From: Ilex aquifolium
Lineage: Eukaryota > Streptophyta > Magnoliopsida > Aquifoliales > Aquifoliaceae
Direction: 5' to 3'
Assembly: GCA_951799425.1 (NCBI GenBank)
Contig: OX637394.1
Span: 6,459,501-6,523,500, forward strand
DNA: 64,000 bases
Translations under genes and position numbers: made by a program
Notes under the pieces: model-generated
Seen by the model: only the letters and a program-made list of their open reading frames with translations
What the model was told of the DNA's origin: nothing
Databases searched by the model: none
Shown: positions 21,746-64,000 of the stretch, piece after piece
How the letters are laid out: each line of letters begins with the position of its first letter
Numbering within the stretch: the stretch's first letter is position 1

Positions 21746-21751
21746 TATAAA
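21746..21751 (+). promoter_or_regulatory. TATA box of C4H
   Basis: TATAAA within CTATAAATCC, 81-86 bp upstream of the ATG, leaving a leader of about 50 bp rich in CCACC. Confidence 0.75.
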
Positions 21752-21831
21752 TCCACACCCACTCCAATTCTCCCACCAACACCCACCACGATTCTCCTCT
21801 CTCATCCGCCCCACCACCACCAGCCTCCGCC

Positions 21832-24612
21832 ATGGATTTTGTTCTCCTAGAGAAGACCCTTTTAGGTCTCTTCTTTGCCATTATAGTTGCCACCGTTGTC
21901 TCTAAATTCCGAGGGAAGCGCTTCAAACTCCCTCCTGGACCCATCCCAATCCCTGTATTCGGAAACTGGCTCCAAGTCGGCGATGACTTAAACCACCGAA
22001 ACCTCACAGATTTAGCGAAGAAATTCGGAGAAATCTTGTTACTCCGGATGGGACAACGCAATCTGGTGGTGGTCTCATCTCCTGAGCTCTCCAAAGAAGT
22101 TCTTCACACCCAAGGGGTCGAGTTCGGCTCAAGAACACGAAACGTCGTGTTCGATATCTTCACCGGAAAAGGTCAAGACATGGTGTTTACCGTTTACGGG
22201 GAACATTGGAGGAAGATGAGAAGGATTATGACTGTTCCATTCTTCACCAACAAGGTGGTTCAGCAATATAGGCAAGGGTGGGAAGAAGAGGCGGCGCGTG
22301 TGGTTGAAGATGTAAAGAACAACCCAGAAGCGGCGAATAATGGGATTGTTTTGAGGAGGAGGTTGCAATTGATGATGTATAATAATATGTATAGGATAAT
22401 GTTTGATCGGAGGTTTGAGAGTGAGGAAGATCCGTTGTTTGTAAAGCTCAAGGCTTTGAATGGAGAGAGAAGTAGGTTGGCGCAGAGCTTTGAGTACAAC
22501 TATGGTGATTTTATTCCCATTTTGAGGCCTTTCTTGAGGGGTTATTTGAGGATCTGCAAGGAAGTGAAGGAGAGAAGGTTGCAGTTGTTCAAAGACTATT
22601 TCCTTGATGAGAGAAAGTAAGTTTATAAATTTTCTTTTCTTCTTTCAATTTTTCAAGTTTTTATATTCATTTTTTCTCTAATCTTCTGTGTTTTTTAAGG
22701 TATTTCTAATTTTTTTTTCTATTTAATAATATTATTTATACCTAATTTATTTTTTTGTGAATCATCTATTACTAATAATGAGTAAGCGACATATTTATAT
22801 ATTTAATAAATCTCAATTAAATATAATTGATTGGTGAAGGAAAACTTAAAAAGAATATGTGTGGGATAGTATAAGCATGTATGGTCTTCAAATGTGCCAG
22901 CAAACTATTTGTAACGTGAGTGTTCATGTTCGAATGTGACACTTCCTGTCGTTAGAAAATGTCTTCTGTAGGAGAAATATTTAGTATTTGAAATAAATAT
23001 TTTTATTTCATTTCTTTTTTGAAATGGTCTGTATGGTCGGGTTCATTCAAATCATGCATTTAATTGAATTCTTACTAAACAATTTTAATAGGACAAGTTG
23101 ATTGGGGTCCCAATTATCAAAATAAAATATGATGTTATTAATTATTGTAATTGATTTAATTGTGGGTCTTAGTATTTATTATGTTATCAATTTAATAGTT
23201 ATAATTAATTAGATCAATAAATTAGATCAGCATTTTAGCTACAAATAACCTTTTTCAAACAAAATTAAAACTTTAGTCTTTTTGTGGATGGTCTGTGACT
23301 GAACCAAAGAGGGATTAGTCAAAATGTGTATAAATTAGTCTGAACACTGTTGAACAAAAATACAAAATTAAAACCTTATTTCTGATGACTGTCTAGATTA
23401 CACTTTTCCGACTTGTAATTATATATTATATATTTGTATAATAATTGGTAATAATTATTATTTTGTATATTACAGGAAGCTTGCAAGCACAAAGCCAATG
23501 GACAACAATGGGCTAAAATGCGCTATTGATCATATCCTCGAAGCCGAACAGAAGGGAGAGATCAACGAGGACAACGTCCTTTATATCGTTGAGAACATTA
23601 ACGTTGCGGGTACGCTTTTACTTTCTCACCATGCATCATCTTTTTTTTTTTTTTATAATTTTACTGGTTATCTGTTATAAAAAAAATAGTTAATTTTGTC
23701 ATTATATTTATGAGAATAATTTTTCACCTTAAATATAGTACCTTAAACTTTGCACTATAGTAGACCAAACGGGCTTTAATTGTATGGAATTTACTTCACG
23801 AATAAAAGTCTCATTTGAATAGATGATGAGACGTGTGATTTATCAGTCTCCCTAAGATTTATAAGTAATTAAACAACTGGAAAATGACACGATCCTGATG
23901 ATTAGTTAGTGTTATTATCTAATTCAAATGCTCTCATACTATGCATTTTTATGGGCAAATGTTATAGTAACGGTTAAATTAATGAGCTAAATATGTTTGT
24001 TGTCATGAAACAGCAATCGAAACCACACTATGGTCAATCGAATGGGGCATTGCAGAACTTGTTAACCACCCCGAAACCCAGAAGAAACTGCGACATGAGC
24101 TTGACACTATGCTTGGACCCGGACACCAGATCACCGAGCCTGACACCCACAAACTCCCATACCTTCAGGCTGTGATCAAAGAGACCCTTCGCCTTCGTAT
24201 GGCAATTCCTCTTCTGGTGCCACACATGAACCTACACGACGCAAAACTTGGGGGTTATGACATCCCTGCTGAGAGCAAAGTCTTGGTGAATGCTTGGTGG
24301 CTTGCCAATAACCCAGCACATTGGAAGAATCCGGAGGAGTTCAGGCCAGAGAGGTTCTTGGAAGAGGAGGCCAAGGTTGAGGCGAGTGGCAATGACTTCC
24401 GATACCTTCCATTTGGCGTTGGCAGAAGGAGCTGCCCTGGAATTATTCTTGCATTGCCTTTACTTGGTATCACTTTAGGGCGTTTGGTGCAGAATTTTGA
24501 GCTGTTGCCTCCTCCAGGACAGTCAAAGATAGATACTGCAGAGAAGGGTGGGCAGTTCAGTTTGCACATTCTGAAGCATTCCACCATTGTTGCAAAACCA
24601 AGATCATTTTGA
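21832..24612 (+). CDS. C4H: Cinnamate 4-hydroxylase (CYP73A), 3 exons, complete
   Basis: Exons 21832-22616, 23476-23609 and 24014-24612 join to exactly 505 aa, the standard CYP73A length. The enzyme 4-hydroxylates trans-cinnamate to p-coumarate in the ER, the second step of the phenylpropanoid pathway, with NADPH-P450 reductase. Visible: N-terminal membrane anchor (about residues 1-25), hinge [13 protein letters not shown], the CYP73 block [20 protein letters not shown]-helix [13 protein letters not shown] (split by intron 2), the ExxR helix KETLR, RPERF, and haem loop [10 protein letters not shown]. Sequence is almost invariant with poplar and tea C4H from memory. No defect seen. Two AC elements and a TATA box precede it, so it should respond to MYB lignin regulators. 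Confidence 0.98.
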
Positions 24613-34900: not shown

Positions 34901-35592
34901 CTCCACCTCGTTCTAACATTATTAAAAAATTCTTTACTAATAAGCTAAATAAATAATTTATAAAAATTTAAATATAAAGTAGTTAATAAAGATGGTGATA
35001 AATTAAAATATGTCATAGTTGTCAAAAAGTTTGAAGTGATTACATAAGCCACATGTCAAAATCCAATCAAAGGATGGCAATTAAATAATTCAAAATTAAA
35101 AAAAAAAAAAATTTGAGGAGAGAAGACTTCTCAAAGACTCTCCAATTGATTATTTTAGTATATAATATATATTCACAACTGATAATCTAGAATTTAAAAA
35201 TGAAAATCCCATTCCTAATCAAAATTACTATCCGATAAGTATTGGGTATTCCCCATTCCCAATTTGCCTTAATGATGCCGTTGATGACTTCCACGTGGCA
35301 TCTCCTAATTTTTAAGAGATCTTGCCAACCCATGAAAGTCTCTTAATCCGGGTTAATAACGGATTAACTCTTTTATCAATCGAATCCCTAAATATACCGA
35401 GTTTTTGTTGGATATATCGCCACAAGAGTTTTTGTCATTCAAGGGTTTTGTTTTTTTACAATCTCTTCGCTTATAAGTTTCCTTCTATATACTAAGGTCT
35501 TCGTCTACCAATTCTTTTTGTTGCCGGCTTTGTTTTGGCTATTACCTATCCGGCCACAGAGTCCAGAGTCATCTTTCTTTTTGTATTTTTCC
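31925..35592. other. Intergenic between ARR17-like and ARI genes
   Basis: The first few hundred bases are the promoter and leader of the response regulator, with a GA-repeat at 32079-32098 and another at 32262-32280. The block 33510-33615 ends in a long A-run and could be a SINE-like remnant. The rest is AT-rich with no gene seen. The last ~150 bases before 35593 would be the ARI leader. Confidence 0.5.
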
Positions 35593-37146
35593 ATGGATTC
35601 GGAGGATGATATGTTCCCTGTGATCGACGCCAAATCTCTCAGCGATGACTCCAGCGGCAACAACATCGGCGGCTGCGGTGACTACACCGACAATTACGAC
35701 TCCGATGACAACTCGGCCAGTTGCGATCAGCAGCCCTATAAAGTCCTGAACGAAGACGATATACGCCAGCGTCAAGATGATGATATTGTAAGTATTTCTC
35801 TTGTTCTTTCTGTAACAAGAACAGCTTCATCCATACTATTGCGTCACTATAACTGGAGTGTGAGTGCCGTGCACGAGGCATGGTTTGCCGATGAAGATGG
35901 CGTCCGCGAAGCTGTTGGTTTGTTGAAAAACCCGATTGTTCGATTTCGGAACAAGAGAAAACTGACCTGTGGGATCTGTTTAGAGAAACATCCTGTTGAT
36001 TTGATGAAAACTGCGGGTTGTGGGCACCTTTTTTGCAGTACATGCTGGGGAACGTACATCAGTATATCCATTGGTGATGGCCCTGGTTGCTTGATGCTGA
36101 CATGTCCCGATCCATCGTGTGTTGCTGCTGTGGGGCAAGATATGATTGATATGATGGTTTCTGATGAAGACAAGAGGAAGTATTCTAGGTATCTTCTTCG
36201 ATCTTATGTTGAAGGCAGCAGAAAGATCAAGTGGTGTCCTGGCCCGGGATGTGACTATGCCGTTGAATATGATCTTGGAAGTGGAAACTACGACGTTTCA
36301 TGCCTCTGCTCCTACAGCTTTTGTTGGAATTGCATAGAGGAAGCCCATCGCCCGCTGGACTGTGATACTGTGGCCAAGTGGATAGCTAAGAACAATTCTG
36401 AAGCTGAAAACACCAACTGGATCCTGGCTTTTACTAAGCCTTGTCCGAAGTGCAAGAGACCAATTGAGAAAAATCATGGTTGTATGCACATGACATGCAG
36501 GGCACCTTGTGGCTTTGAATTTTGCTGGGTATGCCTCCGGAAATATCCAACCTGTCAGACTTCATGTAATCAGTATAGGGAAAACAAGGAAGATAATGAT
36601 GAAGCTGCAACGAGAATGAAGGCAAAGAATTATATACAGAGATATACTCATTATTATGAACGCTGGGCAACCAACAAATCGTCAAGGCAGAAAGCTCTAG
36701 CGGATTTACATCTGACGGAAACTCTGCATATTGACAAACTTGGTATAAAACAGGCTCAAAGTAGAGCTGAATTGAAATTCCTCATAGAAGCGTGGTTACA
36801 GATAGTTGAATGTAGGCGGGTTCTATCATGGAGCTACGCATATGGATACTACATACCTGAGCATGAACATGCCAAGAGGCAGTTATTTGAGTATTTGCAA
36901 GGTGATGCTGAGGCTGGCTTAGAAAGGCTTCATCAATGCGCAGAGAAGGAACTACAACCTTTCCTTGATGCTGAGGGCCCTTCTGATGACTTTAACAATT
37001 TCCGCAAAAAGCTAGCTGCACTGACATCAGTGACCCGAAATTTCTTTGAGAACTTGGTTAGGGCATTCGAGAATGGTCTTTCTGATGTGGATTCTCAAGG
37101 AGCTTGCAGCAAACCACAAGATCAAAAGGCGAAGCACCACCAATGA
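35593..37146 (+). CDS. ARI: ARIADNE-type RBR E3 ubiquitin ligase, intronless, C-terminally truncated
   Basis: 517 aa in one exon, starting MDSEDDMF. Acidic N-terminus (1-60), UBA-like segment with LLRHYNWSV (about 60-110), RING1 C126-C171 (CGICLEKH...[10 protein letters not shown]), IBR about 200-265 (CPGPGCDY...CSYSFCWNC), RING2/Rcat about 284-315 with the catalytic Cys at C302 (GCMHMTC), then the Ariadne helical domain ([31 protein letters not shown]). It should pass ubiquitin from E2 to RING2 Cys to substrate. Closest by memory to ARI5/7/8, whose genes have many introns; the absence of introns suggests a retrocopy. The usual RanBP2 zinc finger is missing, and its decayed sequence lies just downstream of the stop. 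The core is intact, so it may still be made. An upstream in-frame TTG at 35518 is not used as start. Confidence 0.88.
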
Positions 37147-50352: not shown

Positions 50353-50404
50353 AAGTAAGGGCTTGGCTTTTTGGCATGGTTAGACGTATCCCTTCTGTCA
50401 TGGC
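50353..50404 (-). pseudogene. CYP81-like P450 pseudogene, C-terminal piece (left of the MULE)
   Basis: Minus strand reads AMTEGIRLTMPKSQAL, the C-terminal block of CYP81-type P450s (typically DMTEGxGLTMPKAxPL). It continues the fragment at 63569-63691 across the 13-kb transposon, with the target duplication in between. Confidence 0.75.
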
Positions 50405-50405
50405 A

Positions 50406-50607
50406 GATCTATTACCAAAGTAGGGCAGTTTTTGAACTTTATTACCGAAGTACAGCCGTTTTTAACTTATTTACCAAACTACGGTTGTTTTTAAAAGCGG
50501 TATCAACAATTCCGATTTCAATTGAAAGCGGATTTACTAATTACGACTTCTCATAGAAAGCGGCATCAACAAGTACGACTTCTCATAGAAAGCGGCATCA
50601 ACAAGTA
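50406..50607 (+). repeat. MULE left terminal inverted repeat
   Basis: 202 bp matching the reverse complement of 63366-63567 with one mismatch (GCGG here, GTGG in the mirror). Three blocks of TTACCAAAGTA/TTACCGAAGTA/TTACCAAACTA spaced about 33 bp apart sit at the outer edge, a likely transposase-binding series. Confidence 0.93.
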
Positions 50608-50775
50608 TGCTTTCTACGGTGATCAGGTGAGGTGTGATATTAAAGGAAAACGGGTTTGCAAAATACGCTTTCAATAGAAAGCGGTCTTGCCAAATACGAT
50701 TTCACATAAAGCGGAATCAGTAAAGCCGCTTTCAAGTGAAAGCGGATTTGGTGACACCGACTACTTCGTTAAATT
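50500..50775. repeat. Left subterminal GCGG/GAAAGC array
   Basis: About nine spaced copies of GAAAGCGG or its mirror CCGCTTTC, separated by 15-25 bases such as CATCAACAAGTACGACTTCT. Overlaps the inner part of the terminal repeat and extends beyond it. Confidence 0.8.
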
Positions 50776-51733
50776 GATAGCCAAATTAAATGAAGCATAT
50801 TCTATAAACACGCTTTATATATGTATATATTTCTGTTATTTGAAGTTTCCCTCTCTCTCCTATCTGCTATCTCTCATTCGAACGCAGAGATTCCATCTCT
50901 CTGTGCTTCCATCTCCAAGTGCTGTGATTCCCATCTCCATATGTTCTCCCACCAGGCCCCCTCATTTCCTCTGATTTTTGCTTTGGCCTCCCCTACGCTC
51001 ACCTATTAAACCCTAACTGACCCGTGCCCTAAGGTGCTACGAAGAAGACAACTGCTCTGCTGCAAGATTCGAAGCGTGAGATTCGCCTGACTTGCTTTTG
51101 ACCCCTAATTGCAGTGTGTCTTCTTCTTAATAGGCCTAGCTTACTTTCCTCTTTTGTCAAATCTTGCAGTGGACTGGTGGACATCCGTTGGCCTAGGCCT
51201 GCAGCAAGGAGAAGAGAGGCTTCACGTGGTGAACAGAAGGCATTCTATATAAGCAGGTATGCTTCAATTGACTCTCTAATTCAGGAAAGTAGTAAGTGTA
51301 GAAACATATCCACATTGCCCAATCTCAATCCCCATCTCGCTTGAATTCAGAAATCCCCAAGTCTAACTCAAAAAATCTCCCCAACTGTAACTCAATAACA
51401 GATCCCCATTGCCCAATCTCAATCAGTGTTGAATGCAGACATCCTGACTGCATCCTGAATTCAGACATCCTAACTGCATCATTACTGCATCAGAAATCCC
51501 CAAGTGTTACTGCATCAGAAATCTGCAAGTGCATTCTTACTTCTGTAATTTTCTGTGTGAAGGTATTTTGAGGATTGAATTTTATTCAGAAATATAATTT
51601 GAACTGCATCCATGCAATATATTTACTGATCTGTTCTGTTTTTGTATTAAATTTATGGATTAAATTCATTTTTTATGCATTAGGAATACTGATCTGTTTT
51701 TGTATTACATTGTCTTTGCTTCAATTAATATTG
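50776..51733 (+). other. Promoter- and leader-like DNA inside the MULE
   Basis: A TATA-like stretch (50812-50830) is followed by CT-rich, less AT-rich sequence with several intron-like AG and GT sites (for example acceptor cttgcag before 51173 and donor gtatgc after 51256). Degenerate direct repeats of ATCCCCAAGT and CATCCTGACTGCATC fill 51340-51530. No ORF with family signal. It may be the transposase leader or another captured piece. Confidence 0.4.
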
Positions 51734-51761
51734 ACAGTCACATATAGTGAGAAATACATTG
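51734..51761 (+). repeat. 28-bp direct repeat, left copy, bracketing the captured kinase exon
   Basis: An exact 28-bp sequence (starts ACAGTCACATATAGTG) is repeated at 52247-52274. The RLCK fragment lies between the copies. Confidence 0.85.
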
Positions 51762-52115
51762 GTACTCAGTGAATGTGTGTGCACAAAGTGACATGAAACA
51801 AACAACTCAGTTTTGCTCAAGGATGACAGCAAAATATTTTAACCAAACAGAATATTGTCATAGATATAATATCCATAAATATATGCCAACAGCAGTGTAG
51901 AATGACTTTGTATGGGGAACACAGGTACATGCACAGCATGTCTACACATGAATAGACACTAGTGTTTGTACAATTAAAAAAAACAGATTGTGAAAATGAT
52001 TTTCGTCTGGAAATAATCTTCATTTTAGTAACTTCCTTGTTCTGAATGTTGGCTCTGGTCTGATTGAGATTATAGCTTCCTTTGTAAATTAATGAATGGA
52101 CCATACCAGTCATAC

Positions 52116-52224
52116 CAGTCATTACATATTCAGGGGCTGCATAACCATAGGTACCCATTACTCGAGTTGATACATGAGTTTCATAAACTTGCGGCCCAGC
52201 TTTGGCAAGCCCAAAATCAGAAAG
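52116..52224 (-). pseudogene. Captured receptor-like cytoplasmic kinase exon fragment
   Basis: Minus strand reads [12 protein letters not shown], then [19 protein letters not shown] and MTG: the DFG activation-loop and APE segment of an RLCK-VII (PBL-type) kinase. After ATGACTG comes GTATGAC, where PBL genes have an intron donor, so exon and adjoining intron were taken together. A 9-bp ATGACTGGT doubling follows. No catalytic lysine or remaining lobes nearby, so it cannot be an active kinase. This is a typical Pack-MULE-style capture. Confidence 0.8.
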
Positions 52225-52506
52225 CTACTGCTTCAGAGTTTTATTTACAGTCACATATAGTGAGAAATACATTGCTACTGCTTAAGAATATTATTGTGTT
52301 TGCTTTTCTTGCTTTGTGACTCTAATTGAAGCATCAATGTTTGCACCTACAATAATCTGTGTTTGGTGAAGTAAGGGTTAGGAAGGATTAAGTACATTAT
52401 ACCATATGACTTGGATCTAAGGGTTAGGAGGTATTAAGTACACATAATTTTTTATAAACCAACACCTAACATTTTATAAAGCAACACCTACCATTATTTA
52501 CTGAGA

Positions 52507-52954
52507 TTAGTCTTTACTACTCCATTTCCCAGTTGACTGAGCTGCCTGCAACACTTTTTTGGCTTCAACGTACCCTGTTACTGTGGCTTTTTGTTGCTTC
52601 AAGTCCACATCCACAGATATCACTCCTGCAACCCCAATGATATAGACAAGTTTACTAACAAAGTATGTCAACTATGCACCTGTACATACATACATATTAC
52701 ATAGATGGAAAATACTATGCATACCAAAATTTTTACTAAAAAATGTGTATATAAGTAACTTTACTTTGGTGTAAATTCACCGTATCGAGTCATAGATTCA
52801 CCTTTACATATACAAAAGATAACCAACAGAAGTAGGTTAACTATATGTATATCCAAATCCATATGCATGTATATGCATATATATTACCCAGACTATGAGA
52901 AATGAAGGCATGAGAGAGAAGGAACAAGTACTCCAAGGTGCCAGCAACTCCCAT
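52507..52954 (-). CDS. Captured HIPP (HMA-domain) gene piece, 2-exon 61-aa ORF
   Basis: Exon 1 52888-52954 reads MGVAGTLEYL, the N-terminus of HIPP20/21/22-type heavy-metal-associated isoprenylated proteins. Exon 2 52507-52625 reads GVISVDVDLKQQKATVTGYV then EAKKVL, the second half of the HMA domain, and stops at TAA. Donor GTAAT and acceptor TTGCAG join them in phase 1 with no stop, giving 61 aa. The metal-binding CxxC half of the domain (normally the middle exon) and the C-terminal CaaX box are missing, so metal binding and prenylation are unlikely. Upstream (to about 53290) is TATATATTG-bearing sequence that looks like the gene's own promoter. It was probably captured by the transposon. 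Confidence 0.7.
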
Positions 52955-53977
52955 TTTTCTCTCTCAGGTCTTGTACTTGATGATTCTAATGAACACAACA
53001 CTAGCTAGATTTCTAACACTAAGATTGCAGAAAAGAGCTATAGAGAAACTCTTTACTGGTTTGGAATGCAAGAGAGTTACAGAAGTGTAGAGAGAAGAGA
53101 AGCTGATTGGTGAGAAGAGAAGGTTTTGATGGTTGGTTTGCATGGATACACATCAATATATAGACAGAATGGGGGGTAATGTAGAAAATATGAAAGGGTA
53201 AGATCTAGCCTACATAAATTAATAAGGTGGGGCTCACCTAGAAACTGCAGAAAACTTCTCTTCAACTTGATGGATTCTTCCTTCCTTCCTTAGTAAAGGC
53301 AACATATATAAATTAAAGAGAGAAAGAGATAAGAGGCATACAGCTCTATTAACACAGTCAAGATGTTTTGAGTAATCTTTTTTTTAACAACCACCCTTCT
53401 TAAGTAGGCATTGCGTGTTGCTAGAAAAAAGGTATTAAATAAATCAAACCACCACCACCACCCAAAAAAAAAAAGAGACCTCCTATTCTCTCTCCTCTCC
53501 TCCCTCATTTATCCAAATTATCCCGATTTGCAAATTATTTCTTGCAATAATATTGTTTTTAAAATTATTATTGAGTCTTAAAAATTTAACCTAATTTGTT
53601 ATAATGGGATAGAGTCTCAATAAAAGTTTAACAGTTAGAGCTATAATAATTTTATTGGATAATCTCACTGACACATCTTCATGTAAAAATTAATCAACGA
53701 CCTGTCTTATTGAAACAAAAATAATATAAATAATTTTAATTTTTTCAGCCTAAATTTATTGTTTTTGATCTCTATATTGTCCCGCTCTATAATGTGATCT
53801 GATTTGCTCTATCTCTCTCTACATCTGAACTAAACTTGCATAGTCGACAAAATAATGATGAATTTATCGCGGACTATTTCAGATTGTGCATTGAAAAATT
53901 AAACTTTAGAAATTTAGGATATAGTAAATCAAATATATTCAATTATTTGATAGTATATTGTATATTGAAGGTATAAA
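52955..53977. other. Promoter side of the captured HIPP piece and transposase upstream region
   Basis: 52955-53290 appears to be the captured HIPP leader and promoter (TATATATTG near 53155 on the minus strand, AGAGAAGAGAAG repeats). 53300-53977 is AT-rich and should contain the transposase promoter; no clear TATA is singled out. Confidence 0.45.
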
Positions 53978-54001
53978 ATGTCGAGGAGACGGCCACAGTA
54001 A
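53978..54001 (+). other. Short upstream ORF overlapping the transposase start
   Basis: ATG TCG AGG AGA CGG CCA CAG TAA (MSRRRPQ) ends in TAA whose last A is the first base of the transposase ATG (TAATG). Such stop-start overlap can limit or permit reinitiation. Confidence 0.55.
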
Positions 54002-56660
54002 TGTGCTATTGGGGAGGTTATATTATCTACGATGAAGGTTGTTTATCGTACAACGGAAATCCTCAAGATTGTATAAAGTTAAAACAAGGAACAACATATG
54101 AAGAATTATGCACCAAGTTGTACACAATAATGCAGCTGGACAGTACAACGTCACGACTACAACTAATATGTCGGTTTCCAACATTTTTGGGGGATCGAAT
54201 GCAACAGTATATGCAATTTGAAATTAAAAATGATGCCGGTGTCGCAGCGATGGTAGATGCTGTACTTGAGAACCCAGCACTGACTAGTATTGCCTTGTAC
54301 ATACAGGCAGACCCCATCCAACCGTTTCTGCAGCCACTGATGAATGAGTATGGCTCGTATATCGAATTGCTTACACAGGAGAGTATCAATCCGTGTCCCA
54401 CAGTTACAGGGGTTGATAACTCTTACTATGTTGCTGGGAGTAGTCATGTTGCGGACGGCGTTATGGTGGACGATACTTGTACAACAGAGTATAATTCGGG
54501 CCATGGAATTCTGCCGGCTGAGCCTTATGTGCCAGAAATGCACATAGGCCCTAGTACGCATACGTCCATGTATTTGGGATACACCACATCTTCTTCCAAT
54601 GTTGGTATCCCATGTCAAGGTCAATCAAGGACTGAAATAATTCAAAATTTGGTTCATTCAGACGCTGATTTGTTGGCAAGCAATGCAATGCGTGCGGTTG
54701 ATCGTCCGGAAGTCACAGACGACGAGGTCGAAGAGATTACATTGATGGACGATGTGGAAAACCATAATGATGAGGCTGACGAAAGTAGCCCATCACTCAT
54801 ACCGGAAGACATGCGTCCTATGCATGAGCCATCGTCAGCCTTCTTCACCAATGATGAACTTCCCCATATCTCTGCCCCCAACAGTCAAACAAGAGCTCCA
54901 TTGTGGGATCCTGATCGGCCTGAGTTATCCATCGGTCTAATCTTTAAGGGTAAACCGGAATTGCAAGATGCAGTGAAGATTTATTCAATCAACAATCATG
55001 TTCAATTCGAGGTTGTTGAGAGCGAAAAAAAGTTATTGGCTGTGCGGTGTAAAAAGTATCATTCTGGGTGCAAGTGGAGGCTTCGAGCTATTCAAAAGAA
55101 AACGCACGGGCTTTTCCAAATTACCAAATATGAAGGGCCACACACTTGTGTGCATGTATCAGCAACGCTGGACCATCTGCAATTAGATTCCCAATTCGTT
55201 GCACGTAGAATACAAGACCTCGTCAAGGCAGATGCATCTCTGAATGTTGTTTTGATAATAAAACACATTGCCATTGTGTATAAGTACGATATATCGTATC
55301 GTAAAGCATGGAAAGCAAAACAAACTGCCCTAGCAATGATTTTTGGTGATTGGGATGAATCATATAGTCTTTTGCTGAAATTCCTTGCTGCACTGCAAAA
55401 GTTTAATGAAGGGACAATAGTCAGATGGCAGGCGGCCGACCTTGGAAATGGGACTGCCGTATTTGACAGAGTATTTTGGGCATTTAAACCGTGTATTGAC
55501 GGTTTTCGACACTGTCGTCCACTGATAAGTATCGATGCCACATTCTTGTATGGGAAATATAAGGGCAAGTTGTTAATTACTACGAGCCTCGATGGAAATC
55601 ATCAGATTTTTCCTCTTGCCTTTGCAATCGTCGATGAGGAAAGCATAGATACATGGGGTTGGTTTCTTTGGAGACTTAGACAGGATGTTGTCGGTGACCG
55701 TCCAAGCATATGTCTTCTATCTGACCGTCATCAAGGTATAATTCAATCAGTGTCTGCTCATGGTTCCGGATGGCAAGCACTGTATGCATACCATCGATAT
55801 TGCTTACGCCATATCCAAAGTAACTTCAACAGTAAGTTTCATAACTCCCATCTTAAACGGCTAGTATGGGATGCTGGCTCTGCTCATCAAATCCGCAAGT
55901 ATGACAAGATTAAAGCGAAAATCCAACAAATCAACCCATCGGCCGTTCATTGGCTTGATCAGATACCAAAAGAGAAGTGGGCACTTGCACATGACGGTGG
56001 AAGACGTTATGGAGTCATGACAACCAACATTTCTGAGGTGTTCAACTTTGTGTTAAAAAAGGCAAGACATTTACCGATCACGGCATGCGTTGAAACAATA
56101 TTTTATAAGGTTGTTCAATATTTTAATGATAGGCGTGGATCGGCATCAGATAGCGGGTGTTCTTTTACACCTCACGCGGTGGAGAAGATGACGTATGTTT
56201 CAATGAAAAAAGCTGGTCAAAATGTTACCACATTCAGCCGTACCACCGGTGAGGCATATGTTGTTACAAAAAAAGGGAATGCACAGGTACTAAACATTAA
56301 AGACCGCACATGTTCGTGTGGTAAGTGGAATACCTATAAAATGCCATGCTCTCATGCAATGATGCTTTTTTCAAAGAGGCATTTAGACCGTGGCAGTACG
56401 TTGATGAGATATACACAGTTGCTTCCCATGATGCCGTTTGGGCCAGTGAATTTCATCCACTACATCATGTAGACTATTGGGATGCGGTAAGTGGTCCAAA
56501 AATCTGTCCTAATCAAAATCTACTACGGACGAAGGGTCGTCCCCAATCAACTCGGATCCGAAATGAAATGGACGTACGACAGGGTCGTAGTACGTATCAA
56601 TGCAGATTGTGTGGTCAACCTGGGCACGATCGACGCACATGCCCATCAAAAATTGCATAA
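54001..56660 (+). CDS. MULE transposase (MuDR type), one frameshift near the C-terminus
   Basis: Reading frame 54001-56472 (823 aa), then the frame shifts and continues to a stop at 56660. N-terminal PB1-like region (about 1-110), acidic linker, MuDR N-terminal zinc-binding domain about 300-385 (LIFKGKPELQDAVKIYS, CKWRLRA, HTC), catalytic core with D512 (SIDATFLYG), D575 (LLSDRHQG) and E679 (NISEVFN), a CxxH pair (YCLRHIQ), SWIM finger C771-x-C773...C783-x-H785. The frame changes in a T6 run near 56366: FKEAFRPWQYVDEIYTVA and a CCHC knuckle C-RL-C-GQPG-H-DRRT-C lie in the other frame. Without that shift the protein loses only the knuckle and tail. No introns. Confidence 0.92.
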
Positions 56661-56849
56661 GATGTGCACAATTGAAAATGAATGTGGATGTGTATGTAAT
56701 GTGCGGCAGTATTAAATGAACAATGTTCATGTAATTCAACTATGTTCACATTGTTATGTATTTATGTTTATGTCATTACATGAATCAATGTTTCATTCAT
56801 TGAGTATTCACAATGTGTACTTGTTGCAGATACATAATTCAACTGCAAT

Positions 56850-57289
56850 ATGTCTACATCCCGAGGTCCAATAGTTGCGCACAATCGCAGAAATCATAGG
56901 GTTTGGATTTTGACAGAGCGAAAGGATGATTACAAATCAGAGAAATGTACTGATCCAAAGAGTATTATGTAGGATTAAGACGAGAATGGGCATTTCGTTA
57001 TACTGAATCAAACGAATTAAGCAACGAATTAAGAGTACTTGGTATACCGGTGCCACGCCGAAGATCTCTAATGATGCAAAGGAAGAACATACAAGATTAC
57101 GAACTAGTAGTTACTCAAGTTCGCAATGAGAATAATCTAATGTTGGTTCGTAGGCAGCGCTATTATATGGTTCAAATTGCAAACGACATGGTGAAAAATG
57201 CATATGGACGCGATTTATCTGATGTAGAGCGTAATAATGTGTTAAATAATGAACAATACATATCAGATGGTTATATGTCTAACGAATAA
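56850..57289 (+). CDS. MULE small ORF A, unknown function, one frameshift
   Basis: Starts MSTSRGPIVAHNRRNHRV and runs to about 56958; then the coding sense passes to another frame (YYVGLRREWAFRYTESNELS) and ends VRRQRYYMVQIAND...MSNE at 57289. Basic and helical in the second half. It aligns without gaps to small ORF B at 60932-61369 over at least 63 positions (shared REW, LS-x-x-L, P-R, ENN-x-M-x-VR, RY, IA-x-D). No family recognised. It sits between transposase and PMD gene in the same direction. Confidence 0.6.
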
Positions 57290-57460
57290 TAATCAGTGTA
57301 CTTTTGACGCAGCACGTGTATTCTACTATTGACATGTATTACATAATGTCCAATACAGATTAATCGAATGTATGAATTGTTATTTTACAAGTGAAATTAT
57401 TTTTTTTTATTACTGTAACAACAACAATTTACGTGCAATGTCATTTAATGGTATTAAGGT

Positions 57461-60206
57461 ATGGAGCGTCAGCAGGCGCGTGACTTAGTACATCCGGGCC
57501 CAGTTGACCCGGCAGTATTATACTTGCAGCCACGACATCGGTCCACTCAGATATGGGATGGACAGGCACGTAATTTAATGCGTACACTACATATGTAGAT
57601 ACTTAGAACCCATTGTATGTACATTATAATTATTTTTTTTTTGGTAATTCATTAAAGGAATTAGCACCATTGAAGTGCTGTCGGGCAGAGGCTACTATGC
57701 GTCGTTTACGACGACCAGATCATAGGGTATTGAGCCGTGTTATGACTGCCGGATTTTATGGGATCGCCTCTCTTGGGTTTATACAGCTGGACCACCATTT
57801 GGTCACTGCACTAGTGGAGCGGTGGAGAGTGGAGACACATACTTTTCATTTGCCCATAGGAGAGGCGATAGTTACACTGCAGGACATGGCACTACTTTCC
57901 GGACTACCCATTGACGGTGATGCAGTGACCGGTGTTGACACACAGCGCACAGTGCATGAGTGGCAGGATTACTGTGAGCATCATCTAGGCATTAGACCAC
58001 TGGACACAGCATTCACTGGATCTCGACTTAAGATGACCACTCTTGCTACTATATGTGCTGAGCCACTCCGAGATGATGCTGATGCGATCACCATTGATTG
58101 ATATGCTCGTGCCTATATTATGCTGCTCATCGGGGCATACATTTTTCCAGACAAGTCGAAGAACAAGGTCGGACTTATATACTTACAGCATCTTGAGGAC
58201 CTAGATGCATCTGGGAGATTGAGCTGGGGTAGTGCAGCTCTTGCGTGCTTGTACCGTGAGATGTGTCGCGCTACAGCACCAGACGGATCCGACATTGGTG
58301 GACCGCTAGTTATTTTACAGGTAGTGTTTCATTAAAATATAATTGTAAAGTACGTTCATATGAATTACTACTAATTAATAGTTACGTTTAATGTAATAGT
58401 TGTGGGCTTGGGAGCGGCTTACACATATCCGTCTTGATAGAGTACTACCTCATCATGCACCAGAGGTAGATAGACCCGATGTGATTCACGTGCCAGAGGG
58501 ACATCATGCTGGGGTTGCTGCAGAGGTACCCGCTGATGCGGAGGAGATGCCTGACCAGCATGACCTATTACCTAGGGGTCCGTTGGGGTGCAGGTGTGTA
58601 ACCATCAATGAATATTAAATTTTTTCACAAATGATCAAAATGATTAATATAATGAGTTGCAGGTGGAATGTTCGTATGACATCGTATGTACACAGCCCCA
58701 GACACGTGCTCAGACATTACAGGGATCAGCTAGACCAGATGCGCGATGAGCAGGTTCAATTTGTACATCAACGTACACTATGTTAAAAAGTCATACTGTT
58801 TTTACACTTACATGTTAATTGAGTAGTTGTTTTGTTGTAGATGGTTTGGATGCCATATAGTGCTGAGGTCATAGCAGCCTTACCGACGTATTGCACTATT
58901 GGGAGCGACTTGTGGATGACACGTGCACCACTTATATGTTTTGCATTAGTAGAGTGGCATCTTCCTGATCGAGTGATGCGCCAGTTCGGATTTAGACAGG
59001 ATATCCCCCAGCCATGCGACACTGGGTCGGATCTTCATGCTACTGATCGACGCGGTAGAGGTGGTTATGACTGGAGTGTTGTACATCAGTCGTCTGTAGA
59101 TCTATGGACCCACCAGCGAGATCATGTTATTGCGGGGGAGGCACCTGCAGCAGTTACCGATATGAGTGTTCATGCGTATATGGTGTGGTATAGCCGTATC
59201 ACTCGACGGTTGATCGGCCCTCCAGTACATACTCCACCTATTGGATTTCAGCCGATGGGTAGCATATTCGACATTTTTGTAAGATAATCGCTAAGTGCAT
59301 TTGTTATTATAATCAGTATTTACTAATACATAAATTATATCATCCTAATGTTTGTGCGTTTTACATTTACAGGGTCATACACTTGTTCAGATTCACCAGA
59401 TAGCAGATGCTGCCCTTGCGGATGGTACGGACGCAGCCCATAGACAGGCACTACAGACAGCCCGTTTGCTGACATCCACTTGCCTAGAGGCGGTTGGATA
59501 GGACCATCGTCTACATCGTGCGGTCCACACCGACCGGCTACATATACCACCCACTGCACCACGTGCACCGACGGATTTACCACCCCGGCCTCATGGTATT
59601 GTTGTACGACGACAGAGACCTCCACGCCACCGACCAGATATTCGGGTAGATGACAGTGGCGACACAGTACCAGAGACGAGTGTAGCAGAGAGGACATCAG
59701 CACCTACTGAGCCTCAGCAGACACCATCCGTAGTACGTGGAGATACACCATCCACATCGAGTCCGCAGCAGACATCACCACATACTACACCCCGTCCATC
59801 ACCATTGACCGAGACCTTCATACCTACTGATCACCATGCATCGCCTGTTTCACCCATGGCAGGACTATCCACTTTTACATCACCTACTTCAGCAGTCACA
59901 TTACCCAGCCTGCGTCCATCACCTCCCACAGATGTTCATATATCCCAGCCTTTAGATGCTGTGACGCATGGTCATGGTATAGGACTTCATACTACGCCCC
60001 CAGTTGTACATAGGTCACAGCACGGTGCTACGACTCCCCTGGCCCAGCTGATATCATTAGTACGAGGTCGAGGTCGAGGGCGAGGTCGAGGCGGCAGATA
60101 TGGAGGTGTTAGAGGCCGCAGTGGTAGAGTACGGGGTGGTCGAGGCAGAGGCAGCGACACAAGCAGAGGGGTAGATAGTATTCCAGTCGGAGATCCGGTG
60201 TCATAG
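57461..60206 (+). CDS. Plant mobile domain (PMD, aminotransferase-like) protein, 5 exons, two nonsense codons
   Basis: Exons 57461-57565 (probable GC donor), 57658-58320, 58400-58593 joined to 58663-58753, 58841-59278, 59373-60206; 774 codons. PMD core: HPGPVDPAVLYLQPRHRS, LRRPDHRVLSRVMTAGFYG, LITALVERWRxETHTFHLPxGE-type block, LLSGLPIDGDAVTG, YARAYIMLLIGAYIFPDKS, GPLVILQLWAWERL. Then a Pro/Thr/Ser-rich linker and an RG-rich tail (VRGRGRGRGRGGRYGG). In-frame TGA at 58099 replaces the R of DRYARAY (CGA to TGA), and TAG at 59499. PMD proteins (MAIN, MAIL1) affect silencing and splicing in plants, and PMD genes occur in MULEs. Six-exon counting if the 58593/58663 junction is taken separately. 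Confidence 0.88.
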
Positions 60207-60931
60207 GTGTGCGATGGCGAGCCATCACAGTTACAGGATGGGCGTCCGACACGGCTCAGGAAGAAGCCGTCTTGTGGCACGTAGACTTATCATGTTTTAT
60301 CATTTTTAGACATTTATTGTTACATGTATATTTAACACTACTTGGTATGTATTATTGTTGGTTGTGTGGTGGGGTTTTTGTGATTTGGTGGTTGGTTGTT
60401 GTTGGTTGTAGTCGTGGTTTGGGTGATGGTGGTGGTATTTGTGGTTGGGTGTTGGTGGTGGTATTTGTGGTTGGGTGTTTGTGGTGGTATTTGTGGTTGG
60501 GTGTTGCTATGGTAGTTTTTTTTGGGATTGTTACAGTTTTGATATTGTGCATACAGGGAAAAATAATTTTGGTATTACAAAGTTTTAAAGGAAACTCTGC
60601 CGAAATTTTTTAAAATTCATTATGTTTAAAGTCAGGATTTACAATACATACTTTAATCAATTCTGCTCCACTACAATGAGTAATATAAAATAAGACAACA
60701 AACGGTACATTATATTTAAGCACTGCATACTGACAATACAGATAAAGATAACCTAATGACAATGCATTATGACAATGCATACTGTCAATACAGATAAACT
60801 ACAACAACACAGTAGTACAAACATATTATAAAAAACATTTAAGCATGATTATAACAAACGACACACAATAATAAAACACGTTGCGGATAAACCATTGTAT
60901 TCTTAAATGTTTAATCATCACTAAATCTTCA
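60207..60931. other. Gap with TGG-rich tandem repeat
   Basis: Contains a roughly 26-27-bp unit built on GGTGGTATTTGTGGTTGGG repeated about three times at 60428-60507, inside a wider TGG-rich tract 60350-60530. The rest is the convergent 3' space of the PMD gene and ORF B. Confidence 0.65.
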
Positions 60932-61369
60932 TTATGAGAAATTTTCTTCGTCCGACATTTCAACGTCAGAAACACATCCGCCTTCCATAAACAATTGTAA
61001 ACACATACGTGCTTCATCTACCAAACCTTCTGCAGCACGGTCGCCAGCAATTCGCCGTAGGTTGTAACGAGTTTGCCGTACTGCCATACGGTTGTTTTCA
61101 GCACGAATACGCCACTATGCGCCTTCCAACTCTTGTGGTGTTTCAATAGGCATGTTAATGGCAATTTGTCGAGGCCTGCGTATGTTACAAATGTGTAAAT
61201 CTTCACTCAGAACTTCTCTCTCATTCAAACGATATTGCCATTCCTCCCTCATCCTATTTACTGACCTTTGTGCGAAACGTAAACGAGGATTTAGAGGATA
61301 GAAAAATTCATCCTCTAACGCCCAATGATATCCCATAGTTTCAAACACTGCGCGTGGACTGTAACTCAT
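60932..61369 (-). CDS. MULE small ORF B, paralogue of ORF A, one in-frame TAG
   Basis: Minus strand, 145 codons plus stop: MSYSPRAVFETMGYHWALED...MREEWQYRLNEREVLSEDL...PRQIAINMPIE...EGA, TAG, WRIRAENNRMAVRQTRYNLR...SDVEMSDEENFS. The part from MREEW aligns gap-free with LRREW of ORF A. The acidic tail is specific to B. The TAG could be a C-to-T change of CAG. Function unknown; it is transcribed against the other MULE genes. Confidence 0.65.
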
Positions 61370-61845
61370 TTTTGTAGATGATAGGTATGGTAAAAGAAGC
61401 AACACATCCAATCAATTTATAGTGATATTGTAGAGGTAATCGTAGTAACTGTTTAGACAACTGTGCCTATAATGTTTTTAAATATGTTGATTTGACTACA
61501 CCTGCAACACTTCTGATTTAACTCAACACTGCACGCAACACATAACTAGCAGTGATAAGTCGTCCATGGTGATGTAAAACTACACTGTTTGTACATACTT
61601 GTCAGTGTTATGTCAATATCATCATATTAATCACAATAATTTATGGTTGTGTTGTCGCTATCATTGTTCAATCGTCACTTTATCATTGTCATGTCACTAT
61701 CATTGTTCACTCATCACTTTATCACTGTATCAATGTGTAGTCAATTTCATTGTTCACACGTTACTATATCACAGTCTACTAATTATCATTGTTGCTGTTT
61801 ACATACAGTAACATCAGCTGCAGTGAAAATCATACATACAATATA

Positions 61846-62505
61846 ATGTCAACAACGTCATCAAATGGGTCTTCAAGCCAACCAAACAATGACTCATTCC
61901 CAACCTACCATAACCATCATGAAACATTTTCTTCATTCAGTTCACCAGAACCCGGTAATTACACAGATCCCACTGGAGTAACATGGTATGGAAAATTACG
62001 TTCCTTTAAAAATGAGCCAATCAACATTCATAACCCTTTCACCGAAGTCGGCCATGTTATGATTGGACCTGCAACCTTTGTTCCGCCTCTAGAGTTTTAT
62101 TATCACCTACCGGGACCAAGTTGGTTGAAATCTTATTTCAAGCGCTGTGAACTTGAAGTTTATTGTCGTTGGCATGGATTGCGAGTGCCACAGACACGTT
62201 CAGCTGAAATGTATGTGGAATGGTGTACGGATAACTACCATGATATCATTGCAACACTGGCTCTTGAGAATGATCAGATGGAACGACGACTAAATCGATT
62301 CCACCTTATTACAAAGGCTACGATTGAACATTCTAACCCTGTACAGCCTATTAATGCAATACTGTCCGATCCATCATTGACTTCTGACAATGAACTTTCT
62401 GATTTTGAAGAATCTAGTGATTATGATTATTGTGCAAAATTTCTACCAGCTACTCTTTGCTTACATGGCACTCCCCTATGCTGCTGGAAATATGGTCTTC
62501 ATTAG
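61846..62505 (+). CDS. MULE ORF C, 219 aa, unknown
   Basis: Starts MSTTSSNGSSSQPNNDSF with a Ser/Asn/His-rich N-terminus, then a folded-looking segment about 60-170 with GVTWYGKLRSF, GPATFVPPLEFYYHLPGPSW, CELEVYCRWHGLRVP and MYVEWCTDNYHDIIATL, and an acidic tail. Intact over its length. No family recognised. It is the last gene before the right terminal array. Confidence 0.6.
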   Translation: MSTTSSNGSSSQPNNDSFPTYHNHHETFSSFSSPEPGNYTDPTGVTWYGKLRSFKNEPINIHNPFTEVGHVMIGPATFVPPLEFYYHLPGPSWLKSYFKRCELEVYCRWHGLRVPQTRSAEMYVEWCTDNYHDIIATLALENDQMERRLNRFHLITKATIEHSNPVQPINAILSDPSLTSDNELSDFEESSDYDYCAKFLPATLCLHGTPLCCWKYGLH

Positions 62506-63114
62506 AAATATTATGACTACCATTAATGTATTATGTCGTTTAAAATAAAATCTTATTGTCCTATTCCAACAAAAGACTTAAAATCAAATCTTTTTATATA
62601 TGTTTAGGGTTTGTTGCTAGGAATTGGGTGGTTAGATTGCAATTCTCTTTTTGGATAATATTAGTTTGAGCAGATAGGGTTTCATAATTTTTATGATTTA
62701 AGGTTTTGTTTGAATGGGTAGTATTTATGGAAATTAAATATGGTGAAACTTATTTTTATTATTTATTGTTTAATAGAACTAACTATGTTTTATTATTTAT
62801 TATTTATATTGTTTATGAAATGGGATATCATACTTTATTTTTCCAATATGCTAAATAAAATGGGATTGTAAAACGTTTTGGTTGGGATATATCACTTACA
62901 AAGCGGAATTGATAAAACTGTTTTAACTAAGTATGTTTTCTTATTTATTATTTTATGCAATGGGATATCATAAATTAATTTTCCAATATGTTAAATAAAA
63001 TGGGATTGTATAATGTTTTGACCTAATAAGTATGTTAAATTATTTTAATAAATTACTGAAAGTGGAATCTGATTTAATAATATTACACCAAGAGGATAAA
63101 AAAAACAAAAAACT
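62506..63114. repeat. AT-rich spacer with a direct duplication
   Basis: A ~62-bp segment (ATGGGATATCATA...AAATAAAATGGGATTGTA) occurs at 62819-62880 and, diverged, at 62958-63018. No gene. Confidence 0.6.
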
Positions 63115-63460
63115 TAGAAGGCGGCTTTGCCAATTCCGCTTTCAATATAAGGCGGCTTTGCCAATTCCGCTTTCATTAAAAGCGGATTTTCCAAATACGC
63201 TTTCATTAGAAAGCGGACTTATTGATTCCGCCTTCTAATGAAAGCGGATTTGGTATCACCGCTTTTAATGAAAGCGGAATTGGCAAAGCCGCCTTCCTAC
63301 AATTTCAAACAGAACTGAATCCAATAGAAAGCGTATTTGTTAATTCCGCTTTCCCTGAGAAGTCGTACTTGTTGATGCCACTTTCTATGAGAAGTCGTAC
63401 TTGTTGATGCCGCTTTCTATGAGAAGTCGTAATTAGTAAATCCGCTTTCAATTGAAATCG
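63115..63460. repeat. Right subterminal GCGG/GAAAGC array
   Basis: About a dozen GAAAGCGG / CCGCTTTC half-sites in palindromic pairs, with spacers GCCAATT, TTGGCAAAG, TGATACC and the like. Denser than the left array. Confidence 0.8.
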
Positions 63461-63567
63461 GAATTGTTGATACCGCTTTTAAAAACAACCGTAGTTTGGT
63501 AAATAAGTTAAAAACGGCTGTACTTCGGTAATAAAGTTCAAAAACTGCCCTACTTTGGTAATAGATC
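63366..63567 (-). repeat. MULE right terminal inverted repeat
   Basis: Reverse complement matches 50406-50607 with one mismatch. The element ends GGTAATAGATC(C) and the host duplication CTGTCATGGCA follows. Confidence 0.93.
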
Positions 63568-63568
63568 C

Positions 63569-63691
63569 CTGTCATGGCAATCTCCTCTTTGCCGACCTTT
63601 TCTCATTCAAAGGCTGAATCAAGGCTCTTAAAGTAGCCCCAGGACAAGCCCGTCTCCCAGCACCAAATGGAATCATCTTATACCCTTCAGC
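63569..63691 (-). pseudogene. CYP81-like P450 pseudogene, haem-loop piece (right of the MULE)
   Basis: Minus strand reads AEGYKMIPFGAGRRACPG followed by ATLRALIQ, the haem-binding Cys loop of CYP81-type P450s. After ALIQ the family sequence (FEWExVGxEEI) is reachable only with a frame change, and its Trp codon is TGA. About ten residues after the CPG are deleted. Upstream it stops in an A-run at 63692. So this was a truncated, dead gene scrap that the MULE hit. Confidence 0.82.
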
Positions 63692-64000
63692 TTTTTTTTT
63701 TTTTTTTAAAAAGAAATATTTTATTCAGACAAACTCCAAAAAATGTAGTTTGATTTTGATGGTACACATTAGCTCATTTACATCTTCAGCCATAGAACCA
63801 GAAGAGTGGTGGTAAACATTTTTCAAAACTTTTGTTCAATCTCAAGATCCAAACAAATTTATCCAAACACATTGAACGATTGAACTAAGCAAAGTTTGTG
63901 CACTTTCCCCTGGTAAAACGAACACATTGTCACGGACGGATTTTATTCAGACAAACTCCAAAAAGATTTTTAAGAAAGAAAGATTTTATTCAGAAAAAAC
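63692..64000. repeat. Short direct repeats at the window end
   Basis: TTTTATTCAGACAAACTCCAAAAA occurs at about 63719-63742 and 63942-63965, and its first half again at 63983-63994. A poly(A/T) run opens the region. No gene seen. Confidence 0.5.

Follow-up and report, generated by a model that had tools for sequence, protein, structure and literature searches.

A Mutator-like element of Ilex aquifolium carrying a PMD gene, a family of small open reading frames, and palindromic arrays at both ends

A 64,000-nucleotide stretch of the Ilex aquifolium genome (contig OX637394.1, positions 6,459,501 to 6,523,500; referred to here as the window, with coordinates counted from its first base) contains a transposon of 13.16 kb, at 50406-63567, that is almost certainly a genuine Mutator-like element (MULE) bearing a gene for the PMD domain (PF10536). 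On balance, we favor an explanation in which the PMD gene and a family of small open reading frames (ORFs), A, B, and probably C, serve the element as accessory genes of its own, not as passive cargo, and act on ends that carry arrays of palindromes. Under this explanation, the MULE would have transposed into a P450 gene or pseudogene near its end, and its transposase, now frameshifted, would have cut at the 202-bp ends and left an 11-bp duplication, in the manner known for MULEs. The likeliest targets of the accessory proteins would be the termini of the element, where the regularly spaced palindromic arrays may form a docking platform for the transposase, the accessory proteins, or both; such docking could keep these termini open to transposition and transcription.

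The boundaries of the element are sharply defined. Its terminal inverted repeats (TIRs) are 202 bp long (left, 50406-50607, plus strand; right, 63366-63567, minus strand) and agree at 201 of 202 positions counted from the termini, the sole mismatch falling at base 188. A longer inverted repeat (50406-50615 and 63358-63567) is 98% identical over 210 nucleotides. Two identical 11-bp target-site duplications, features without strand, enclose the element (50395-50405 and 63569-63579), and one extra base, 63568, precedes the right copy. Dupeyron et al. (2019, PMC6446971), in the part of their paper cited here, give 8 to 11 bp as the range of MULE target duplications; the element thus combines a MULE-family transposase, TIRs, and a duplication within that range. 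The initial annotation of this DNA had proposed a 202-bp end, and an element complete with both ends and a target duplication, and was right on each count. Its bounds, 50405 and 63568, need small corrections, since the former is the last base of the left duplication and the latter is the extra base. A blastn search of the window for a second copy returned one 40-bp match (85%) and nothing more.

When the flanks are fused at a single copy of the duplication, the minus strand reads open for 34 codons through the insertion site. The piece spanning the site has no Pfam family at an E value of 1, and the right flank holds a P450 heme loop that matches Pfam p450 with an E value of 1.1e-4 and 21.6 bits, slightly below the cutoff of 22.8. 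On the strength of this sub-cutoff loop and of what is known of the family, the MULE is taken to sit in the terminal part of a P450 gene or pseudogene. The P450 remnant is itself broken by one stop and one frame change. It lies on the minus strand within 63580-64000, beside a tract rich in T and a pair of direct repeats of 25 bp (63718-63742 and 63940-63964).

The transposase gene (53977-56660, plus strand) encodes DBD_Tnp_Mut (PF03108, E value of 2.3e-13), MULE (PF10551, 3.8e-15), and SWIM (PF04434, 6.5e-6) domains in a first frame that runs to 56472, and a zinc knuckle in a separate frame at 56340-56660. Because the domains are split over two frames, we place one frameshift between SWIM and the zinc knuckle; this lesion prevents the whole protein from being read in one frame, and the copy thus lacks the intact transposase frame of an autonomous MULE. 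The motifs DATF, SDRHQG, and NISEVFN, which we take to supply the catalytic D, D, and E, are present in that order. Against solved structures, the transposase has no credible match (best E value of 0.23). A transposase pattern gave four pattern matches and no relatives in a collection of genome contigs, and the transposase, one PMD exon, and a TIR string gave no matches in a collection of viral contigs; these searches say little because both collections are by design without plants.

The coding regions of this copy have decayed, with at least five lesions: the transposase frameshift, two stops in the PMD gene, a frame change in small ORF A, and a stop in small ORF B. The prior description of the element as "complete-looking" therefore holds for its structure and fails for its coding regions. 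Profile hidden Markov model searches recovered the predicted MULE and SWIM domains, together with DBD_Tnp_Mut, within the frame at 53977-56472, and likewise the predicted PMD gene described below. If divergence since insertion is read from the single TIR difference in 202 bp, 0.7 stops are expected where three are seen (P = 0.038); under the upper bound on divergence, 4.1 are expected (P = 0.77). Both estimates assume that 4.5% of substitutions create a stop; the copy may thus have been broken either before or after it transposed.

The PMD gene (57461-60206, plus strand) is modeled as six exons (57461-57569, 57665-58320, 58400-58593, 58663-58753, 58841-59278, and 59373-60206); the borders are our own, with GT..AG introns. 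The exons share one frame, interrupted by two in-frame stops at 58099-58101 and 59499-59501. The spliced product up to the second stop, of 538 residues, covers positions 1 to 346 of the 347 in the PF10536 model with an E value of 1.6e-86, scoring 291.1 bits versus a gathering score of 34.9. Past the second stop, the frame stays open for a further 234 codons (59502-60203) with an RG-rich end, and the PMD protein therefore probably once carried an RG-rich tail, for which an RNA-binding function is conceivable. The gene stands separately on the transposase strand and is not fused to the transposase. Directly downstream of it, at 60358-60506, lie overlapping G/T-rich repeats with a period of about 26 bp. 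One PMD exon compared with solved structures has no credible match (best E value of 0.66). In the same plant-free collections, a degenerate PMD pattern occurs in no viral contig and in 10 bacterial genome contigs, among which tblastn finds weak pieces in 4, the best with an E value of 0.045 over 19 residues. The sections of PMC8616336 cited here describe PMD as restricted to angiosperms, which points to a flowering plant as host.

That a MULE should carry PMD is already known, as the initial annotation had stated, because two studies document such elements. In the cited portions of Ikeda et al. (2017, PMC5418596), MULE PMDs are reported as transposase fusions in several grasses and Amborella, are inferred to have been captured from host genes, and are suggested to serve anti-silencing; the review in PMC8616336 likewise raises a counter-silencing idea, so that this proposal too is already known. 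Dupeyron et al. (PMC6446971, cited portion) list PMD in at least seven MULE table rows, often in antisense and in one case with an "unknown ORF," and record it in most members of four clades.

As the initial annotation had indicated, three further ORFs accompany the transposase and PMD genes. Small ORF A (56850-57289, plus strand) consists of a tail at 56954-57289 and, we infer, a head that starts at 56850 and is read in another frame. Small ORF B (60935-61369, minus strand), a paralogue of A, has one in-frame TAG at 61115-61117. Small ORF C (61846-62505, plus strand; 219 amino acids), the only one of the three with an open frame, is a probable diverged relative of A. The tail of A aligns with B without gaps over 71 residues, 26 of them identical, and scores 119, versus a shuffle mean of 29.3 (standard deviation, 5.3); none of 20,000 shuffles reaches this score. 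The alignment of A with C scores 57 (shuffle mean, 26.1; standard deviation, 4.0), again reached by none of 20,000. Ranked over the 232 stop-to-stop ORFs of at least 60 amino acids in the window, with A itself excluded, the highest scores of A are 67 and 59 with the two B pieces and 57 with C, after which no ORF exceeds 37.

Identity between A and B is 0.61, 0.54, and 0.34 at the first, second, and third codon positions, versus codon-shuffle means of 0.27, values reached by 0, 0, and 603 of 5,000 shuffles, respectively. Third positions are thus near random while the protein has been kept, the signature of long protein-level selection on two genes within one element. A and B are very probably selected genes of the element; C is probably related to them. 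The corresponding figures for A and C, over 66 codons and given without a shuffle null, are 0.35, 0.50, and 0.30. The CpG ratios of A and B are 1.37 and 1.22. AlphaFold, run with a three-row alignment, models the tail of A as a pair of long helices, at residues 2-28 and 46-84 (mean predicted local distance difference test score [pLDDT], 84; predicted template modeling score, 0.71); for C it places helices in the region matching A with low confidence, in a model too poor for use (mean pLDDT, 42.6). In a Foldseek search of the PDB, the A model had 18 matches with E values up to 10, none at or below 0.001 (best, 4.3), and C has no match among solved structures. Neither the A tail nor C has a Pfam family at an E value of 1, and the sole Pfam match of a B piece, DUF3915 (E value of 0.13), is below the cutoff. 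No publication on the A/B/C family surfaced in a literature text search, which cannot query sequences and covers few subscription papers.

These data bear on whether the accessory genes might be useless to the element, the PMD gene and the small ORFs being transduplicated host sequences. The element does carry captured host pieces (described below), PMD, A, and B contain stops or frame changes, and the host capture of MULE PMDs put forward by Ikeda et al. points the same way. The captured pieces are short fragments, however, whereas PMD spans nearly its entire model; the codon pattern of A and B indicates protein-level selection after their separation; and the prevalence of PMD across the four clades of Dupeyron et al. 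is not what cargo would predict. We regard passive cargo as rather improbable. It is because A and B diverged to near-random third positions and yet kept the protein that we take the accessory genes to be the element's own.

A different origin was also considered, namely, that the PMD gene and its neighbors belong to another element, such as a Gypsy element with PMD, nested in the MULE. PMD does occur in Gypsy elements (PMC5418596, cited portion), but no long terminal repeat-like direct repeats are listed around the PMD gene, and six-frame translations of 56400-63570 contain no retroelement domain at an E value of 0.1; at that threshold the same Pfam scans find nothing besides the zinc knuckle and PMD. 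A nested retroelement is accordingly disfavored as the source of the accessory genes, and we consider this origin very improbable.

Each end of the element bears an array of palindromic units of the AAAGCGG...CCGCTTT type, features without strand: 8 units on the left (50494-50764), mostly 30 to 32 bp apart, and 11 on the right (63118-63480). The 26-bp unit has the consensus AAAGCGG..CCGCTTTC. Within the ends, 15 of 17 spacings are 30 to 32 bp, and the remaining two are 57 and 58 bp. At each end, three units lie fully and one partly inside the TIR; the others reach inward and differ between the ends. Exact AAAGCGG or CCGCTTT occurs 8 times in the 395 bp of the left end and 11 times in the 467 bp of the right end (19 in 862 bp), versus once in the 12,300-bp interior, and is absent from the 50,405 bp that precede the element. 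When a single mismatch is tolerated, the density of half-sites is 33 and 49 per kb at the two ends. The CpG ratios of the arrays are 1.50 and 1.39, compared with 0.55 for the part of the window that precedes the element. As judged from sequence, the arrays are likely candidate sites for a protein encoded by the element, with the transposase the likelier binder than an accessory protein.

The arrays could serve transposition alone, with A, B, C, and perhaps PMD helping in cutting or integration, the palindromes being transposase-binding sites, and no counter-silencing involved. They lie at both ends, where the transposase must bind; a period of 31 bp is about three helical turns and would fit cooperative assembly; and mudrB is apparently needed for integration (PMC6446971, cited portion). 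Against this, the arrays exceed the TIR and differ between the ends in their number of units, perhaps beyond what a transposase would need, and the host relatives of PMD act in silencing (PMC7156037, cited portion). We rate this account a serious contender that falls somewhat short of even chances.

Alternatively, PMD, the small proteins, or both might act as a counter-silencing cassette like that of VANC, attaching in trans to the arrays and clearing silent marks from members of the same family. VANC proteins bind short motifs in non-coding tandem repeats and remove methylation in a sequence-specific manner (PMC5735166 and PMC10398659, cited portions), and according to a figure legend they carry DUF1985 and DUF287. 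A fragment of PMD matches DUF1985 with an E value of 0.0047 over model positions 25 to 139 of 141. In addition, the VANDAL clade row of Dupeyron et al. (PMC6446971, cited portion) reads "SWIM and CCHC" and "PMD and/or DUF in half the members," the DUF being unspecified. The DUF1985 match scores only 17.3 bits versus a Pfam cutoff of 35.1, however, and its E value is 0.09 with the 538-residue product, the fragment having been picked after that match. DUF287 is not listed in the Pfam search of the PMD product or fragment. The controls, one reversed and six shuffled, have no listed match; they are weak because the HMMER filters discard most matches above an E value of 0.1. VANC motifs, moreover, are intronic, intergenic, and terminal non-coding (PMC5735166, cited portion), whereas the exact motif here is nearly confined to the ends. 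The resemblance of PMD to DUF1985 is thus a lead that stays under the threshold and was drawn in part post hoc, and such a cassette seems unlikely to us.

Some evidence leans toward counter-silencing, which the initial annotation had raised as a possible role of PMD and the small ORFs, namely, the ORF family, the presence of palindromic arrays at both ends, and the sub-threshold PMD-DUF1985 resemblance. Read most simply, the arrays are there for the transposase and the accessory genes aid transposition or expression, with counter-silencing a live but unproved rival; that the accessory genes serve counter-silencing rather than transposition proper is, in our view, less likely than not. More speculatively, MULE PMD and VANC DUF1985 might form one family, and the element a fuller counter-silencing cassette in which PMD and small helical partners (A, B, and C) would sit on helically phased end palindromes and keep the ends free of silent chromatin, MAIN and MAIL1 being host-side members that act oppositely. 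We consider this improbable.

Several observations weigh against accessory genes acting on array-bearing ends. The analysis rests on one broken copy, and the array units were chosen with a motif list of our own selection. The one-mismatch half-site occurs in the interior at the background rate (1.14 per kb versus 1.19 outside). The high CpG ratio of the arrays is not unique because other windows of the same size also reach it: 31 of 1,003 windows of 281 nucleotides before the element and 7 of 241 in the interior are at 1.39 or above. As for C, its alignment with B scores 30, a value reached by 5,308 of 20,000 shuffles, so that these two show no similarity on their own; among the 232 ORFs its best partner, A (57), is followed closely by another at 48; and an hhalign comparison of A plus B with C gives an E value of 0.006 and yet a probability of 6.2%.

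Comparison with known systems helps to separate what is shared from what is not. With the PMD-bearing MULE clades of Dupeyron et al. (MULE-Monocots, MDR, MUDRAVI2, MUDR, and others; PMC6446971), the element has in common PMD, a MULE transposase that includes SWIM and/or CCHC, and TIRs ranging from tens to hundreds of bp. In the cited portion of that paper PMD is often antisense, whereas here it lies on the transposase strand, and that portion mentions neither a small-ORF family nor palindromic end arrays like those found here. Like VANDAL elements of Arabidopsis, which encode VANA, VANB, and VANC, the element is a large MULE in which accessory genes join the transposase and a motif recurs in the non-coding DNA, a likeness of layout with a different motif. 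It also has both the SWIM and the CCHC of the VANDAL clade, in two frames, a combination found in other clades as well (PMC6446971, cited portion). VANDAL TIRs are described as degenerate (PMC10398659) and 46 to 174 bp long (PMC6446971) in the cited portions, in contrast to the near-identical 202-bp TIRs here, and there is no confident VANC domain, the DUF1985 fragment match being below the cutoff.

The Arabidopsis proteins MAIN and MAIL1, of the PMD-C type, share the PF10536 domain; they are host proteins, whereas the PMD here is encoded by an element and has an RG-rich tail. MuDR of maize (mudrA and mudrB) resembles the element in pairing a transposase with an accessory gene and in its TIRs, which are about 200 bp long; PMD is not known from MuDR. 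Captured host gene pieces between TIRs are shared with Pack-MULEs, which have no transposase gene, whereas one is kept here. Tandem-TIR MULEs, reported in dicots among others, similarly have repetition at both ends; whole TIRs are repeated there, versus palindromic units of about 26 bp here (PMC3310237, cited portion).

Relative to these systems, the paralogous small-ORF family (A and B, with C probable), the end arrays spaced at about 31 bp, the captured host pieces, and the PMD-DUF1985 resemblance may be new, although we make no firm claim. The small-ORF family and the phased arrays are the parts that deserve follow-up. PMD is a domain of unknown function common to transposons and host silencing proteins, and its pairing here with a selected small-protein family and regular candidate binding sites offers concrete pieces for testing the pairing of proteins with repeats and any resulting relief from silencing. 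The PMD-DUF1985 link, if true, would tie the unexplained PMD to VANC, well-studied anti-silencers of plant transposons, and would make a role for PMD directly testable.

No element gene was recognized in the left interior of the element (50771-53960), a six-frame Pfam scan giving just two host-type domains, both on the minus strand. The first, at 52114-52224, is a captured host exon that encodes part of a receptor-like cytoplasmic kinase of the RIPK/PBL type. Both of its borders are of splice type, with AG preceding the exon and GT falling at its last codon, and among its 17 matches to PDB sequences are the best, 8hoa_A (hypothetical protein; E value of 8.2e-15), and ScRIPK (8.4e-15), PBL2 (6.6e-13), and BIK1 (1.6e-10); its Pfam Pkinase match (E value of 0.0074) is below the cutoff. 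Direct repeats of 38 bp (95%; 51729-51766 and 52242-52279) flank the kinase-exon segment, a possible trace of its acquisition. The second, at 52525-52635, is a captured fragment of a heavy-metal-associated protein, presumably HIPP-like; it matches the Os01g0507700 protein (8r7a) with an E value of 3.5e-7 and Pfam HMA, below the cutoff, with an E value of 0.0011. The CpG ratio of the left interior is 0.25, a value as low in only 2 of 237 same-size windows in the rest of the window, and therefore suggests a long methylated past for this region.

Elsewhere in the window are three host genes: a KIP1-like gene at 1044-2912, a P450 gene in two pieces at 21751-24609, which we take to be C4H-like, and an Ariadne-type IBR ubiquitin ligase gene at 35392-37143.

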